Positions 64-6,701 of a stretch of 6,701 nt of DNA are shown here, in pieces; positions within the stretch are counted from its first letter, which is position 1, and each line of letters starts with the position of its first letter. Both the position numbers and the translations under genes were made by a program. Origin of the DNA: Candidatus Adiutrix sp. Its GTDB lineage: Bacteria > Desulfobacterota > Desulfarculia > Adiutricales > Adiutricaceae. The stretch is from contig JAITBV010000153.1 in NCBI GenBank assembly GCA_031283395.1, forward strand, positions 1 through 6,701. Direction: 5' to 3'. Under the pieces are notes generated by a model, which worked only from the letters and a program-made list of their open reading frames with translations, did no database searches and was not told where the DNA came from.

Positions 64-3000
64 TCAGGTGGCCGGCCGGCTTTCGCCCGCGGCCTGGACC
101 AGAAGCTGGATTTCCGGGAGGTTGGGTTTGCCCAAGGGGGTCAGGGGCAGGGGGGCCAGGCGGTGGGATTCCCGGGGGCAGGCGATCTCCGCAAAGCCCG
201 CCCCTTTCAGGGCCCGCCTCAGGCCTTCCAGGTCCGGTTCCGCCTCTTCGGTCACCAGGACCAGTTTTTCACCCTTGCGGTCATCGGCCAGGGCCACCAC
301 GGCCAGGGGCCGCTCCGGCCACAGGGCGGCGGCCACGGCCTCCACCGAGGCCAGGGAGATCATTTCTCCGGCTATTTTGGCGAAGCGCCGGGCCCGGCCC
401 TTGATCCAGATGAAGCCCTCTGGGTCAAGGTCGACTATGTCGCCCGTGTCATACCAGCCGTCCGGAGGGGGGGTGAAGACGCCGGGCCGGGCCGGGTCGA
501 GGTAGCCCAGCATAATGTTGGGCCCCCGGGCCAGGAGCCGTCCCCCGCTTTCCAGGCCTTCCATCGGTTCCAGCCGGGCTTCCAGGCCCGGCAGGAGCGT
601 GCCCACGGAACCGGCCCGGCAGCGCATGGGGGTGCTTACGGCCAGGACCGGGGCCCCCTCGGTCACGCCGTAGCCCTCGTAGATACGCAGGCCGAATTTT
701 TGGGCGTAGAGGTCCCGGGTGCGCTCCTTCACCTTTTCCGCCCCCACCAGGAAGAAGCGGACGGTTTTGAAGTCATAGGGATGGGCGTGGCGGCCCCAGG
801 AGGCGGCGAAGGTGTCGCTGGTTATGATCACGGTGGCCCTGAGGTCGTAGATAAGTTCCGGGATGAGGTTGGCGTGGAGGGGACTTAGGTAGTTGAAGCT
901 TCTCATGCCCAGCATCAGGGGCAGGAGGGCCCCGATGTTCAGGCCGAAGGCGTGGAACAGGGGCATGGCGTTGAAAAGGAGGTCGTCTTCGTTCACTTCA
1001 ATGTGGCAGCGGGCCGCCAGGATGTCGGCCAGCATATTGGCGTGGCTCAGGGCCACCCCTTTGGGCCGGCCCTCGGAACCTGAAGTGAAGACCATGACGG
1101 CCGGGCTGTCCGGCGGGGCCGGCCGGCCCCGCCAGGTCAGGGCCGCCAGCTTGTCCCGGAGCCCCAAGGCCAGGTCTTCCAGGAACCAGAGCCGGGCCGG
1201 GAGCCTGGCCGCGGCCTCGGTCAGATTCACCGCTTCCAGAAAGCGCCGGGAGGTGACTATGGTTTTGACCCGGGCCGTGGCCAGGGCCTCGGTCAGGGCG
1301 GCCGGTCCCTGGGTGTGGTTAAGCGGCAGGGCGGTCCGGCCCCCGGCCCACAGGCCGAAAAGGGCCGTGACCGCGATGGAGGAATTGGGGAGCAGGAGCC
1401 CCACGGCCTCGCCGGGCAGGGTCTGGGCCGCCAGCCGCCGGCCCAGGACCCTGGCCCGCCGCCGGAGGCTCCGGTAGCTTAAGGGCCGGCGCTCGGTGTC
1501 TTCCAGGATGGGCCGGTCCGGTCCGTAAAGGCGGGCCGCGTCGCCCAGGGCGGTCCAGAGGTTGCGGTTCAGGTCTTCAGTCGCGAAGCGGCTTTGGATC
1601 AAGAGGGTCAGAAGAGTCTCGGCGGCCGCCCCCCGCCGCTCCCGCCGGCCTTCGCCTGGTTTCAGGGGTCGGGGGGGCAGCACGGTCAGGCTGACTTTGG
1701 GCCGGGCCGGGCGGTGGCGCATAAGGCTCCGCCAAAGCCCCCAGCGGGTGTATTGCAGGCCGTCCAGGATCACCGGCACCAGGGGCGCCTGGGCCTGGGC
1801 CGCGATGAGTCCGGCGGCCTCGGTGACTTTCATCAGGCCGCCCGTGGCCGTGGGCCGTCCTTCGGGAAAGATGACCACTGTTCCCCCGGCGGCCAGGGCC
1901 TCCAGAACGGCCCGGACGCTTTGGGGCTGGCCCGGGTCGAAGGGGAGGGGGTTCAACAGCTTGGCCAGGATCCGCGGTATATCGGCCCGGCCGTCTAAGG
2001 CGAAGGTCAGGCGGCGGGGCAGAAAGGCGGCCAGGAAGGCCGCGTCCAGTCTTGAAACATGGTTGGCCACCACCAGGGCCGGGCCGCCGGGCCCGGCCAG
2101 ATGCTCAAGGCCGGCCAGGCGGGGCCGATAGATAAGCCGGAAGCCCAGGCGCAGGAACTGCCCCAAAGCCTCGGCTGAAAGGAAGCTCAGGCTGGCCGCG
2201 GTGACGACCAGGGCGCTGGCGGCCACGAAGGCGAAGACCTCCGGCAGGCTGGCCCCCAGATAGGTCAGGAGCATCACCAAAAGGCTCCCCGCGCAGATGA
2301 AGAGGGAGTTGATGATGTTGTTGGCCGCTACGACCCGGGCCCGTTCCCCGGCCTCGGAGAGATATTGGATCATGGCGTTTAAGGGCACCACGAACAGGCC
2401 CCCCAGAACGCTGACCACCAGGCAGGAAAAGCCCAGCCGCAGGTGGTCCCGGGAGCTTAAAAAGGTGGTCAGGTCCACCGTGTCGGGCGCGGCTGGCGGC
2501 AGGCGCCAGAGGTTCCAGCTCAGGTCGGCCATAAAAACGGTCAAAAGCGCGGCCGAGGCCGGGACCAGGGCGGCGCTGACCCGGCCCTTCAGAAGGCCCT
2601 GGGCGGACACCGAGCCGATGGCCACGCCCAGGGCGAACATGGTCAACAGGAAGGTGCTGACTTCGGGCGTGCCGCCAATAACCTCCCGGCAGAGTATGGG
2701 GATCTGGGTCATGAACACCGCGCCCATGCCCCAGAACCAGGAAATGCCCAAAATGGCCATCCAGATATCCGGCCGGCTCTTGACCGAAGCGATTATCTCA
2801 TAGGTGGAGCGCCAGGTCCGGGCCTGGACCGCGACTTCCGGCCGGCCGGGCCGGGAATGGGGCTGCTTGAGGGCGAAAGACAGGCCGGCCAGGGCCACCA
2901 CGGTCAACCCGACCGGCATATAAAGGCTGGTCCCGGCCGGCCGGGTCACCAGCCAGGAGCCGGCCTGGGTGCCCAGGACTATGGCGATGAAGGTGGCCCC

Positions 3001-3450
3001 CTCCACCAGGCCGTTGCCGCCCAGAAGATCCTTTTCCTCCAATATTTCCGGCAAAAGGCCGTATTTGAGGGGGCCGAAAAAGGTCGATTGCAGGCCCATG
3101 AAAAACAGGATAATCAACAGGGCGTAAATGTGCCCGGTCGCGAAAAAAAAGGCGGCCAGGGTCATGGCCCCGACTTCAGCCGCCTTGGTGATCTTAACGA
3201 GGGTGGATTTGCGGCAATGGTCGGCCAGTTCCCCGGCCAGGGAGGAAAAGAGGAAGAAGGGCAGCATCAAAAGCCCGGTGGCCAGGCTGGCCAGGATGGT
3301 CTTTTCCGACTGGCTCAGGCCGGTGGCGCTGAAGGCCAGGTAGGCGATGAGGGCCTGGCGGAAGAAATTGTCATTGAAAGCTCCCAGGGCCTGGGCTCCG
3401 AAAAGGGGCCAGAAATCGCGCTGGCTGAGGATGCGGCGAAAGGTGTTCAT
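64..3450 (-). CDS. aas: LplT-PlsC-acyl-ACP synthetase fusion: lysophospholipid flippase and reacylation enzyme
   Basis: This protein of 1128 residues carries a complete lysophospholipid-recycling route. Residues about 10-430 are an MFS transporter of the LplT type (GAFNDNFF at 23-30, roughly 12 hydrophobic segments) that would flip lysophospholipids across the inner membrane. Residues about 440-610 are a PlsC acyltransferase, with NHVSRLD (463-469) as the catalytic NHxxxxD box and FPEGRPTATG (528-537) as the substrate-binding box. Residues about 625-1128 are an AMP-forming acyl-ACP synthetase with the P-loop TSGSEGRPKG (789-798), GYGVTEG (926-932), YDTGD (1000-1004) and a C-terminal GK lysine (1108). 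In E. coli, LplT (about 400 aa) and Aas (about 720 aa) are separate neighbouring proteins, so the summed length fits a head-to-tail fusion with nothing lost. The ATG at 3450 is preceded by AGAGG (3457-3461) with 6 nt spacing. All visible catalytic motifs are intact. The lipid substrate (2-acyl-glycerophosphoethanolamine in E. coli) is inferred. Confidence 0.93.
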   Translation of the reverse strand: MNTFRRILSQRDFWPLFGAQALGAFNDNFFRQALIAYLAFSATGLSQSEKTILASLATGLLMLPFFLFSSLAGELADHCRKSTLVKITKAAEVGAMTLAAFFFATGHIYALLIILFFMGLQSTFFGPLKYGLLPEILEEKDLLGGNGLVEGATFIAIVLGTQAGSWLVTRPAGTSLYMPVGLTVVALAGLSFALKQPHSRPGRPEVAVQARTWRSTYEIIASVKSRPDIWMAILGISWFWGMGAVFMTQIPILCREVIGGTPEVSTFLLTMFALGVAIGSVSAQGLLKGRVSAALVPASAALLTVFMADLSWNLWRLPPAAPDTVDLTTFLSSRDHLRLGFSCLVVSVLGGLFVVPLNAMIQYLSEAGERARVVAANNIINSLFICAGSLLVMLLTYLGASLPEVFAFVAASALVVTAASLSFLSAEALGQFLRLGFRLIYRPRLAGLEHLAGPGGPALVVANHVSRLDAAFLAAFLPRRLTFALDGRADIPRILAKLLNPLPFDPGQPQSVRAVLEALAAGGTVVIFPEGRPTATGGLMKVTEAAGLIAAQAQAPLVPVILDGLQYTRWGLWRSLMRHRPARPKVSLTVLPPRPLKPGEGRRERRGAAAETLLTLLIQSRFATEDLNRNLWTALGDAARLYGPDRPILEDTERRPLSYRSLRRRARVLGRRLAAQTLPGEAVGLLLPNSSIAVTALFGLWAGGRTALPLNHTQGPAALTEALATARVKTIVTSRRFLEAVNLTEAAARLPARLWFLEDLALGLRDKLAALTWRGRPAPPDSPAVMVFTSGSEGRPKGVALSHANMLADILAARCHIEVNEDDLLFNAMPLFHAFGLNIGALLPLMLGMRSFNYLSPLHANLIPELIYDLRATVIITSDTFAASWGRHAHPYDFKTVRFFLVGAEKVKERTRDLYAQKFGLRIYEGYGVTEGAPVLAVSTPMRCRAGSVGTLLPGLEARLEPMEGLESGGRLLARGPNIMLGYLDPARPGVFTPPPDGWYDTGDIVDLDPEGFIWIKGRARRFAKIAGEMISLASVEAVAAALWPERPLAVVALADDRKGEKLVLVTEEAEPDLEGLRRALKGAGFAEIACPRESHRLAPLPLTPLGKPNLPEIQLLVQAAGESRPAT

Positions 3451-3715: not shown

Positions 3716-4336
3716 ATGTCCAGCCCCAGCTTATATAATGACTTGAATCTCAGCCAAGGCGCTTCCCTCAGGGAAATCAAGGCCGCCTTCCGGCAAGTGG
3801 CCAAAACCTGCCATCCCGATGCTGTCGGGGCCGGTCGGGCTGATGTGGAAAAGTTCATCAAGGCCCAGACCGCCTATAAAAAGCTCCTTCAGGCCGCCAC
3901 GGCCAGCAATCGGGCTCGCCGCCAAAAGAAGGTGGAGCCCAAGCCCGCGGGCCAGTTTTATCGCTGGGAAGAACGCCGGGAAGATGGCCTGGATGTCATC
4001 TACCGCCTGACCGTCCTTAGGCCCGCGGCCGGCGAAGGCCGCCGCCTGGTTCTGCCGGCCCGGGCCCAGGAAGCCTGTCCCCGTTGTTTGGGGCAGGGAC
4101 GCACCCTGGCCAAACTGGGCAATAATGGCCTTTATCGCCCCACCTTATGTCCCAAGTGTGAAGGCCGGGGGGCCCTGGACCGTCCCGTCAGCCTGGCTGT
4201 GACCATCACCGCCGACCAGGTCGGCCGGGGCCGGATCCGCCTCCGGGGGGCCGGTCTCTACCAGGCTTCCCAGGCCCGGCGCGGCGATTTGATCCTGGAA
4301 CTGGTCTGGGCGGACCGCCTGGCCCCGGCCAACTGA
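3716..4336 (+). CDS. Shortened DnaJ-like J-domain co-chaperone with a half zinc finger
   Basis: This 206-residue cytoplasmic protein probably stimulates an Hsp70 (DnaK) ATPase. Residues about 5-62 are a J domain with the essential HPD triad at 33-35 (context CHPDA). A basic linker (RARRQKK, 66-72) replaces the usual Gly/Phe-rich region. Residues about 95-118 resemble the first strands of the DnaJ substrate-binding domain. Two CxxCxGxG motifs follow (121-128, 145-152), enough for one zinc site, whereas standard DnaJ has four motifs and two sites. The segment 172-197 (GRIRLRGAGL...GDLILELV) matches the closing part of that same domain. The second C-terminal domain and dimerisation end are missing; full DnaJ is about 375 residues. 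The ATG is preceded by AGGAGG (3704-3709) with 6 nt spacing, plus a second AAGGAG at 3697-3702. It is expressed from a sigma-54 promoter, unlike housekeeping dnaJ. The J-domain call is firm; the client is unknown. Confidence 0.9.
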   Translation: MSSPSLYNDLNLSQGASLREIKAAFRQVAKTCHPDAVGAGRADVEKFIKAQTAYKKLLQAATASNRARRQKKVEPKPAGQFYRWEERREDGLDVIYRLTVLRPAAGEGRRLVLPARAQEACPRCLGQGRTLAKLGNNGLYRPTLCPKCEGRGALDRPVSLAVTITADQVGRGRIRLRGAGLYQASQARRGDLILELVWADRLAPAN

Positions 4337-5251: not shown

Positions 5252-5290
5252 AAAAGCCAACCGGGCGCGGGCGGCGCCCGGTTGGCTTTT
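5252..5290. terminator. Strong bidirectional intrinsic terminator after the MORN gene
   Basis: A perfect 17 bp inverted repeat (arms 5252-5268 and 5274-5290) encloses a 5 nt loop. The GC-rich core GCCAACCGGGCGC is flanked by AAAA on the left and TTTT on the right, so it can act on both strands. It starts 10 nt after the MORN stop codon and separates the sigma-54 genes from the riboswitch-controlled hppA unit. Confidence 0.93.
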
Positions 5291-5295
5291 ATCTG

Positions 5296-5324
5296 TTGTC
5301 AACATAAGGGGTCTGTGATATAAT
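5296..5324 (+). promoter_or_regulatory. Sigma-70 promoter for hppA
   Basis: The -35 TTGTCA (5296-5301, five of six matches) and a perfect -10 TATAAT (5319-5324) are separated by the optimal 17 bp. TGA immediately before the -10 adds an extended -10 element. Transcription should begin near 5331, about 8 nt before the riboswitch aptamer. The perfect inverted repeat ATATAAT-CA-ATTATAT (5318-5333) overlaps the -10 and the start point and could also be an operator. Confidence 0.85.
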
Positions 5325-5338
5325 CAATTATATGATTT

Positions 5339-5398
5339 GGGAATGAAGTTCTCCCACGGCCAGGCCGAAACCGCTTTAAAAGCTGATGACTTCTGCTG
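5339..5398 (+). promoter_or_regulatory. Fluoride riboswitch aptamer (crcB motif)
   Basis: The leader shows the features of the fluoride aptamer in order. GGGA (5339-5342) can pair with TCCC (5352-5355) as the pseudoknot. The conserved AUG (5343-5345) leads into helix GAAGT (5345-5349) with ACTTC (5389-5393). The conserved AAACCGC (5368-5374) opens a small hairpin GCTT-TAA-AAGC (5373-5383). GCUGAUG (5382-5388) supplies the second fluoride-site strand, with the U (5394) expected after the helix. Order and spacing match, as I recall them, the characterised Thermotoga petrophila and Pseudomonas syringae examples. An extra hairpin, CGGCC-A-GGCCG (5357-5367), sits in the variable junction. Fluoride riboswitches are normally ON switches. 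The downstream gene is a pyrophosphatase, a fluoride-sensitive enzyme class already known among targets of this motif. One deviation is UGC instead of UAC after the helix (5394-5396). Confidence 0.85.
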
Positions 5399-5418
5399 CG
5401 GGCAGTTATCGGCTTTTT
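5378..5418 (+). terminator. Riboswitch expression platform: conditional intrinsic terminator in the hppA leader
   Basis: AAAAGCTGATGACT (5378-5391) pairs with AGTTATCGGCTTTT (5404-5417) in a 14 bp stem with two G-U pairs and a 12 nt loop, ending in a TTTTT run (5414-5418). Its left arm reuses the conserved GCUGAUG and part of the closing aptamer helix, so aptamer and terminator cannot form together. Ligand-stabilised aptamer would therefore allow read-through into hppA, the usual logic for fluoride switches. Confidence 0.75.
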
Positions 5419-5469
5419 ATATTTCCGGTTCCGCGCCGCCGCCATTTTGAAGCTACAAGGAGACGAGTA

Positions 5470-6701
5470 ATGAGATTTTCAGCCTCTGGTTTTCTGAAGA
5501 AAACGGTTTTTTTTCTTCCGGCCGTTCTGGTCCTCTTGGCCGCCGGCGCCGGCGGGGCCCTGGCCTCCGAGGCCGACCTGGTGGTGCCCGATCTAAGCCC
5601 CGGCCAGCATAACCTCCTGGTGGCCGGCCTGGTGGTCTGTGTCCTGGGCATGCTGTTCGGGCTCTACCAATACCTGAGCATCAGAAAACTCAAGGCCCAC
5701 CCGTCCATGCTGGCCGTGGCCGCCATGATTTACGAGACCTGCAAGACCTATATGTTTCAGCAGGCCAGGCTGCTTTTGATCCTCTTCGCCTTCGTGGGCA
5801 CGGCCATAGCCTTCTACTTCGGCTTTCTTCAGCATATGTCCGCGGGCGGGGTCCTTTTGATCCTCCTGTGGACCATCATCGGCATCCTGGGTTCCTACAG
5901 CGTGGCCTTTTTCGGCATGAGGGTCAACACCCTGGCCAACAGCCGCATGGCCTACGCCTCGCTGGAAAAGAAACCCCTGAATCTTCTGAACATCCCCCTG
6001 AACGCCGGCATGAGCATCGGGGTGCTTCTGATTTCCGTGGAACTGGTGATGATGCTCATCATCCTCCTGTTCGTGCCCCGCGAATTGGCCGGGGCCTGTT
6101 TCATCGGCTTTGCCGTGGGTGAATCCCTGGGGGCCAGCGCCCTGCGCATCGCCGGCGGCATCTTCACCAAAATCGCCGACATCGGTTCGGACCTGATGAA
6201 GATAGTCTTTAAGATCAAGGAGGACGATCCCCGCAATCCCGGCGTCATCGCCGACTGCACCGGGGACAACGCCGGAGACAGCGTCGGCCCCACCGCCGAC
6301 GGCTTTGAGACTTACGGCGTCACCGGCGTGGCCCTGGTCACCTTCATCTGCCTGGCTGTGGGCCAGAGTCTCGGAGTCCAGGGGCAGCATCTGATCCAGA
6401 CCACCTTGCTGACCTGGATCTTCGCCATGCGCGTCCTGATGGTCGTCACCTCCATCGCGGCCTTCTACGCCAACGGGGCCTACAGCCGGGCCAGGTTCGG
6501 CCACCTGGAAGACTTCGATTTTGAAGCCCCCCTCACCTCCCTGGTCTGGGTGGCCTCGATCCTCTCCATCATCATGACCTTCGCGGCCAGCTACATCCTC
6601 ATCGGCCCCGGCACGGAAGTGGCCGCGCTTTCCCCCGGGCTCTGGTATGTCCTGGCCGGCATCATAAGCTGCGGCACCCTGGGCGCGGCCCTGATCCCCG
6701 A
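5470..6701 (+). CDS. hppA: Membrane-bound proton- or sodium-pumping pyrophosphatase (partial, N-terminal 410 residues)
   Basis: This enzyme couples hydrolysis of cytoplasmic pyrophosphate to ion export across the inner membrane. The frame is open to the window edge, giving 410 residues of a family usually about 660-750 long. Residues 1-32 look like a signal peptide (basic start, hydrophobic core, ALA before SEA), followed by multiple membrane helices. The pyrophosphate-binding loops are clear: K234 and the aspartates of ADIGSD (236-241), EDDPRNP (251-257), and DCTGDNAGD (262-270) with D262, D266 and D270 as metal ligands. D277 and E280 (ADGFE) follow at the ion gate. The wording DCTGDNAGDSVGPTADGFETYG differs from canonical DNVGDNVGD-type enzymes and may mark the divergent H+-pumping group described from Chlorobium limicola. 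Residues that set potassium dependence lie beyond the window, so ion specificity stays open. The ATG has AAGGAG (5457-5462) with 7 nt spacing, though a long leader with a fluoride riboswitch precedes it. Confidence 0.94.
   Translation, partial: MRFSASGFLKKTVFFLPAVLVLLAAGAGGALASEADLVVPDLSPGQHNLLVAGLVVCVLGMLFGLYQYLSIRKLKAHPSMLAVAAMIYETCKTYMFQQARLLLILFAFVGTAIAFYFGFLQHMSAGGVLLILLWTIIGILGSYSVAFFGMRVNTLANSRMAYASLEKKPLNLLNIPLNAGMSIGVLLISVELVMMLIILLFVPRELAGACFIGFAVGESLGASALRIAGGIFTKIADIGSDLMKIVFKIKEDDPRNPGVIADCTGDNAGDSVGPTADGFETYGVTGVALVTFICLAVGQSLGVQGQHLIQTTLLTWIFAMRVLMVVTSIAAFYANGAYSRARFGHLEDFDFEAPLTSLVWVASILSIIMTFAASYILIGPGTEVAALSPGLWYVLAGIISCGTLGAALIP

Follow-up and report, generated by a model that had tools for sequence, protein, structure and literature searches.

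Fluoride riboswitches of the crcB motif have been described as RNAs in which a terminator overlaps the aptamer and fluoride turns expression on (PMC2864571; PMC13273304). The genes reported behind them include exporters, Na+/H+ antiporters, enolase and pyrophosphatase, the last being the Mn-dependent ppaC where the type is specified, and Na+/H+ antiporters are said to be second to exporters (PMC11139923). Bacillus cereus crcB, the type of RF01734 (PMC8752731), shares with the locus analyzed here the same aptamer anatomy, the pseudoknot and a terminator laid over the 3' half, but controls a fluoride exporter, whereas the present switch precedes a gene for a membrane pyrophosphatase and further differs in having 9 nt in the P1 loop and one additional hairpin, located between P1 and P3. 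A fluoride riboswitch directly before a pyrophosphatase gene, as found here, is likewise described for Enterobacter cloacae FRM (PMC5533749). Its ppaC, however, encodes a soluble, Mn-dependent enzyme and shares an operon of six genes with, among others, crcB, eno, gpmA and uspA; here, the target is a membrane pump, and the analyzed sequence, which ends inside hppA, shows no gene after it. The membrane pyrophosphatases of Adiutrix-type bacteria (PF03030, NF001950-like) represent the same gene as this hppA but, unlike it, are not preceded by a detected fluoride riboswitch. The switch itself adds nothing new to riboswitch biology, and it is the target gene that is unusual.

The window, i.e., the whole analyzed stretch of 6,701 nt, matches the full RF01734 model (positions 1-64) at 5330-5402 of the + strand with 45.8 bits and an E-value of 1.7e-10 (cmscan), the gathering score of the family being 34. 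The aptamer is composed of the following elements:

5330..5402, + strand: fluoride riboswitch aptamer (RF01734 full-model match)
5338..5356, + strand: P1 hairpin UGGGA-AUGAAGUUC-UCCCA with a 9-nt loop (sequence, folds)
5345..5350, + strand: 5' strand of the pseudoknot, GAAGUU, with its partner at 5388-5393 (sequence; register according to the RF01734 alignment)
5357..5367, + strand: additional hairpin of 4 bp, CGGC-CAG-GCCG, located between P1 and P3 (fold; insert relative to the Rfam consensus)
5373..5383, + strand: P3 hairpin GCUU-UAA-AAGC, GCUU 5373-5376 pairing with AAGC 5380-5383 (RF01734 alignment, fold)
5388..5393, + strand: 3' strand of the pseudoknot, GACUUC, which the terminator also uses in its 5' arm (sequence, alignment, fold)

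P1, P3 and the loop-tail pseudoknot are thus all present and every pair is a standard one. P1 pairs UGGGA (5338-5342) with UCCCA (5352-5356) and carries the AUG in its loop, AAACCGC follows at 5368-5374 and GCUGAUG at 5382-5388, and six of six pseudoknot pairs between 5345-5350 and 5388-5393 are standard, including one G-U. The site for Mg and fluoride is presumably formed by the AUG of the P1 loop together with U, A and UG of the tail (numbering of the Ren 2012 structure), and the corresponding residues are found in the sequence as A5343, U5344 and G5345, U5384, A5386, U5387 and G5388, and U5394. A model built from 29 Desulfobacterota riboswitch sites, the window excluded, also matches (30 bits, E-value 1.5e-6), but independently supports the 3' half only, because it aligned the extra hairpin 5357-5367 as P1. 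Judging from these elements, 5330-5402 is a genuine and ordinary fluoride riboswitch that would be expected to bind its ligand. The window has seven further Rfam matches, among them CRISPR-DR29, IRES_mnt and FsrA, but all lie below their gathering scores and were attributed to chance.

Several features depart from the consensus. The P1 loop comprises 9 nt in place of the usual 8, with C5351 as the extra base, and P1 is closed by the pair A5342-U5352 at a position that is invariably G and C in all 29 aligned Desulfobacterota sites; despite this closing pair, the full Rfam score stays above the threshold. Among the 126 of 146 Desulfobacterota sites that could be parsed by a simple script (20 were missed), the loop measures 8 nt in 114 and 9 nt in four cases. 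At least 8 bases separate P1 from ACCGC in 16 of the 126, and P1 is fully paired in five of these 16. Both the 9-nt loop and the extra hairpin therefore have precedents among Desulfobacterota sites, and the combination of A-U closing pair and 9-nt loop may lower the affinity for fluoride.

The aptamer is embedded in the following arrangement of expression signals and coding sequence:

5252..5290, + strand: terminator-like hairpin with 17 pairs, 11 of them G-C, and a TTTT-rich tail, which would close the upstream MORN-repeat gene and insulate the unit
5296..5324, + strand: putative sigma-70-type promoter TTGTCA-17-TATAAT with extended -10 (TG), a consensus match only
5378..5418, + strand: predicted terminator, hairpin 5378-5417 plus T run 5414-5418 (-18.9 kcal/mol; comparison with shuffles)
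5457..5463, + strand: AAGGAGA, the ribosome-binding site of hppA, 7 nt upstream of its start (sequence)
5470..6701, + strand: hppA, membrane-integral pyrophosphatase, first 410 residues (PF03030, NF001950), continuing past the end of the window

The 5' arm of the terminator captures the 3' strand of P3 as well as the 3' strand of the pseudoknot. The minimum-energy fold of 5333-5425 (-29.1 kcal/mol) is the terminator hairpin and not the aptamer, and hairpin 5378-5417 appears in the fold from nt 5410 onward. The stability of 5333-5425 as a whole exceeds that of shuffled sequences only moderately (z -2.61, 2 of 200 fold as well). With 5378-5395 kept fixed and the next 30 nt shuffled, an equally stable structure arose in none of 1,000 dinucleotide and in two of 2,000 mononucleotide shuffles. 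Compared with 124 of the 146 Desulfobacterota sites (the 22 lacking the motif used for the search were dropped), the terminator is of average strength for its class: over 65 nt it reaches -22.2 kcal/mol, the median being -22.1, and 61 of the 124 sites equal or exceed its stability. At the end of the hairpin stand five T's and then ATATTT, with four of the T's paired. Consequently, it was absent from the list returned by a simple terminator scan of the window, the T run at 5414-5418 being mostly paired in the stem.

The promoter-like site agrees with the consensus at 11 of 12 positions, and one such site was found where shuffles give 0.3. Since this match ends at 5324, the transcript should begin at the aptamer or within a few bases of it, near 5331, and its leader would extend for about 139 nt to the ATG at 5470. 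The first-pass annotation had proposed a fluoride aptamer with its elements in the canonical order, a terminator sharing the 3' half of this aptamer and a leader of 138 nt, and on all three points the present analysis agrees: the covariance-model score exceeds the gathering score, the hairpin uses P3 and pseudoknot strands and outperforms its shuffles, and the leader lengths nearly coincide. Promoter, aptamer, terminator and the upstream closing hairpin together form what appears, from the sequence, to be a self-contained unit that is predicted to be switched on by fluoride.

The product of hppA matches PF03030 with an E-value of 1.5e-72 (245.7 bits, cut-off 29.7). It also aligns to positions 20-404 of the 807 in profile NF001950 ("sodium-translocating pyrophosphatase"), where truncation of the gene by the end of the window keeps the score, 593.5 bits, below the cut-off of 826. 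When aligned to solved pumps, the PPi-binding segment EDDPRNPxVIADxxGDNxGD is found as IKEDDPRNPGVIADCTGDNAGD, the segment itself reading EDDPRNPGVIADCTGDNAGD. A longer ORF beginning with the in-frame ATG at 5386 was rejected, as this codon lies inside the aptamer and the start at 5470 has a good ribosome-binding site. In an 81-sequence tree, whose bootstrap had not fully settled, the protein pairs with that of Candidatus Adiutrix intracellularis (84% identity over 277 columns; sister support 99/83), and this pair falls into a clade of 14 rows (100/100), the other 12 being Deltaproteobacteria MAGs. In the motif GNTFKATAK, seven of seven inspected loci of relatives carry the lysine that is also present in the K+-insensitive solved pump 8b37, which suggests a K+-independent pump. 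Upstream of the riboswitch-hppA unit lies a gene for a MORN-repeat protein (domain scan). Further genes of the window encode a 206-aa DnaJ-like protein (3716-4336, + strand), much shorter than DnaJ, which combines a J domain with a brief segment resembling the cysteine-rich domain (CxxCxGxG match below the cut-off), and a 1128-aa fusion of MFS transporter, acyltransferase and AMP-binding ligase of the acyl-ACP--phospholipid O-acyltransferase type (64-3450, - strand).

The first-pass annotation had also pointed to the target gene as unusual, and this impression was supported: at none of 302 fluoride-riboswitch sites from four phyla was a membrane pyrophosphatase the next gene (HMM, all reading frames). 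The sites, which are the best-scoring ones of each search, comprise 146 from Desulfobacterota, 76 from Bacillota, 50 from Acidobacteriota and 30 from Bacteroidota, the last three names being derived from the search-centre genomes G426, G428 and G427; three of the 302 are below the RF01734 cut-off, and four Desulfobacterota sites with too little downstream sequence were left out. The HMM, run on 253, 19 and 30 sites, was built from one subfamily and recovered 30 of 30 positive control loci, some of which are among its own building genes. Its reach extends to a membrane pyrophosphatase 45% identical to the window protein (L161, genome G262), the only match in the 302. This locus was rejected as a precedent, as the gene lies about 2 kb downstream of the riboswitch behind a gene for a dynamin-like GTPase, with a promoter-like sequence between the two (by eye). 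A membrane pyrophosphatase as direct riboswitch target is therefore rare among the sampled sites.

The reverse search, starting from hppA, gave a similar picture, with no convincing riboswitch at 110 loci of hppA relatives (97 distinct genes). For 80 relatives searched with the 29-site model, the best match besides the window reached 13 bits (E-value 0.41), and 30 hppA loci of the family, 13 of them already among the 80, gave no match up to an E-value of 1. The loci were fetched with about 1.5 kb on each side, a few contigs ending within 0.6 kb; several have little upstream sequence, and three (L050, L052 and L273) contain no leader, one of the three being the nearest relative, whose contig lacks the start of hppA. 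Weak matches to the 29-site model (L038, 13 bits; L032, 12.2 bits) and to RF01734 in genome searches (15.6-21.6 bits) were taken as chance. An RF01734 match over the cut-off was present in none of 37 genomes of the nearest family (the Adiutrix-type family of G007), in 152 of 395 Desulfobacterota, 120 of 348 Bacillota, 90 of 297 Acidobacteriota and 39 of 345 Bacteroidota. The number of first-look candidates scored per genome was 104 in the family search and 12-17 in the phylum searches; the absence from the family is not proof, because only part of the candidates was scored, although its search went deeper than those of the phyla.

Open-access literature joining riboswitch, fluoride and translocating pyrophosphatase came down, in the text covered by the search, to a single paper on Bacteroides transporters. 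No open-access paper was found that joins a fluoride riboswitch with hppA or a sodium pump; Baker et al. 2012, which reportedly lists fluoride-riboswitch genes, was outside this search. A review citing that work gives, in the passage concerned, "pyrophosphatase" without a type (PMC11139923).

The computed results are the family of the aptamer, its overlap with the terminator, the match to a promoter, the identity of the gene and the rarity of the pairing; from these we infer ligand binding, the ON direction, the amount of read-through, the status of hppA as only pyrophosphatase and a benefit to the cell. Most probably, the locus functions as a canonical fluoride riboswitch of the transcriptional type, switching on hppA, a PPi-driven ion pump. 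RNA polymerase would start near 5331 and produce the aptamer. Upon binding of fluoride with Mg2+, the pseudoknot would lock 5388-5393 and P3, making the 5' arm of the terminator unavailable and allowing transcription into hppA, and without fluoride the hairpin 5378-5417 would form and transcription would stop near 5418. Under fluoride, more of the pump would clear PPi and move ions outward, which would counter the acid load and the loss of gradient caused by fluoride. Removal of PPi and outward pumping of ions would fit the occurrence of Na+/H+ antiporters as common riboswitch genes (PMC11139923; this census). Besides the atypical closing pair and loop of P1 and the absence of the hairpin from the terminator scan, two further points count against this explanation. 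The switch is found in none of the 37 family genomes, so that its use with hppA draws no support from conservation, and if hppA were the only pyrophosphatase, the cell would be harmed by a tight OFF state.

The second point is closely linked to the pyrophosphatase content of the lineage. Within the 37 family genomes, for the most part MAGs that may lack some genes, a soluble pyrophosphatase of family I was found in one and of family II (DHHA2) in none, and a membrane pyrophosphatase was found in 33, of which 32 have one match and G016 has two, the second being distant. The Adiutrix-type family thus seems to run on the energy-conserving membrane pyrophosphatase alone; the idea that the pump backs up a soluble enzyme loses weight, as the relatives are nearly devoid of such enzymes. 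If the window organism resembles its relatives, hppA is perhaps its only pyrophosphatase. In this case, it must be made without fluoride too, and the switch would adjust its dose over a basal level, which, we think, is a real one. A rival explanation holds that a leaky terminator lets many transcripts pass and that hppA is essentially constitutive, with only a small boost by fluoride. Such a modest regulation of dose is conceivable, if short of probable. It would agree with the partly paired T run and with the stretch between 5419 and 5469, where no second promoter was obvious by eye or found by a promoter scan. On the other hand, the strength of the hairpin is average for the class, and another pyrophosphatase may exist in the organism, as illustrated by the second one in G016 (1 of 37). 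A more specific proposal, which is tentative and leans toward the doubtful, is that the switch sets the level of the only pyrophosphatase, an energy-conserving and fluoride-tolerant pump, that the response to fluoride consists in spending PPi on the ion gradient and not in exporting fluoride, and that the switch was recently gained in one Adiutrix-type lineage.

It was originally reasoned that fluoride inhibits pyrophosphatases and that more pump is hence needed, so that the switch would supply additional copies of an inhibited enzyme, as with enolase and ppaC. This explanation is unlikely. Fluoride-induced ppaC and eno have indeed been read as extra copies of inhibited enzymes, but in the same account ppaC is a Mn-dependent inorganic pyrophosphatase and no membrane pump (PMC5533749). 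Moreover, the premise was not supported as it stood: membrane pyrophosphatases, of other subfamilies than the window pump, are handled as fluoride-resistant activities in PMC11593465, and their activity in yeast microsomes is called "fluoride-insensitive" (PMC7438732). The title of a reference cited in PMC11486809 contrasts classes of membrane-associated pyrophosphatases by their fluoride sensitivity. By analogy with these assays, the window pump is more likely to be fluoride-tolerant, and it is more likely that the switch raises a tolerant PPi-driven pump than that it compensates for an inhibited enzyme.

A longer operon, in which a fluoride exporter or another classic fluoride gene would follow hppA beyond the window, appears quite unlikely. 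The window ends inside hppA, and the lack of a visible fluoride exporter in its 6,701 nt says little, because crcB is present in 20 of the 37 family genomes. In relatives, however, a hairpin directly follows the hppA stop codon in six of six distinct genes inspected by eye (seven loci, as L007 and L262 represent a single gene; the hairpin of L244 is without a T run), which favors a single-gene unit. That the leader of another organism was joined to hppA during metagenome assembly is highly improbable. The DnaJ-like and MORN neighbors were absent from the vicinity of hppA at all 110 relative loci within the available, in part short, flanks, and the family genomes are devoid of over-cut-off riboswitches; on the other hand, the signals from the promoter through aptamer and terminator to the ribosome-binding site and start codon are lined up in workable order within 175 nt. 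Because these neighbors are absent near the hppA genes of relatives, the leader may stem from a local rearrangement.

If the proposed control of hppA by a canonical fluoride riboswitch is correct, having a membrane pyrophosphatase as direct target would tie fluoride stress to the energetics of pyrophosphate in a bacterium that seems to be an anaerobe of the termite gut. With this pairing, it could also be tested in a simple way whether natural membrane pyrophosphatases act as the fluoride-tolerant type of the enzyme.

The census also revealed which genes commonly follow fluoride riboswitches in Desulfobacterota. The first ORFs behind the 146 riboswitches (L091-L236), grouped by single linkage and, with wrong frames picked at some G+C-rich sites, labeled by sequence reading except for two GTPases and one NADHdh protein that were domain-scanned, include 49 dynamin-like GTPases, 33 antiporter-like and 12 CrcB-like proteins, and the smaller groups contain two enolase-like and two CLC-like proteins. 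Dynamin-like GTPases (e.g., L113:1596-3062 and L161:141-1892) are thus the largest class of first genes in this sample, both scanned members being PF00350 Dynamin_N proteins, and no open-access paper joining fluoride riboswitch and dynamin was found. At five sites (L100, L106, L168, L199 and L234), the riboswitch precedes a membrane subunit of the NADH dehydrogenase/formate hydrogenlyase type (the single scanned case, L168, has PF00146), in agreement with the association with formate hydrogen lyase reported for the crcB motif (PMC2864571). A cluster of seven RF01734 matches, four over the cut-off and three below, is located in Candidatus Formimonas warabiya (G426; L274 and L276-L281), where it spans about 10 kb (2360217-2370439) on both strands.
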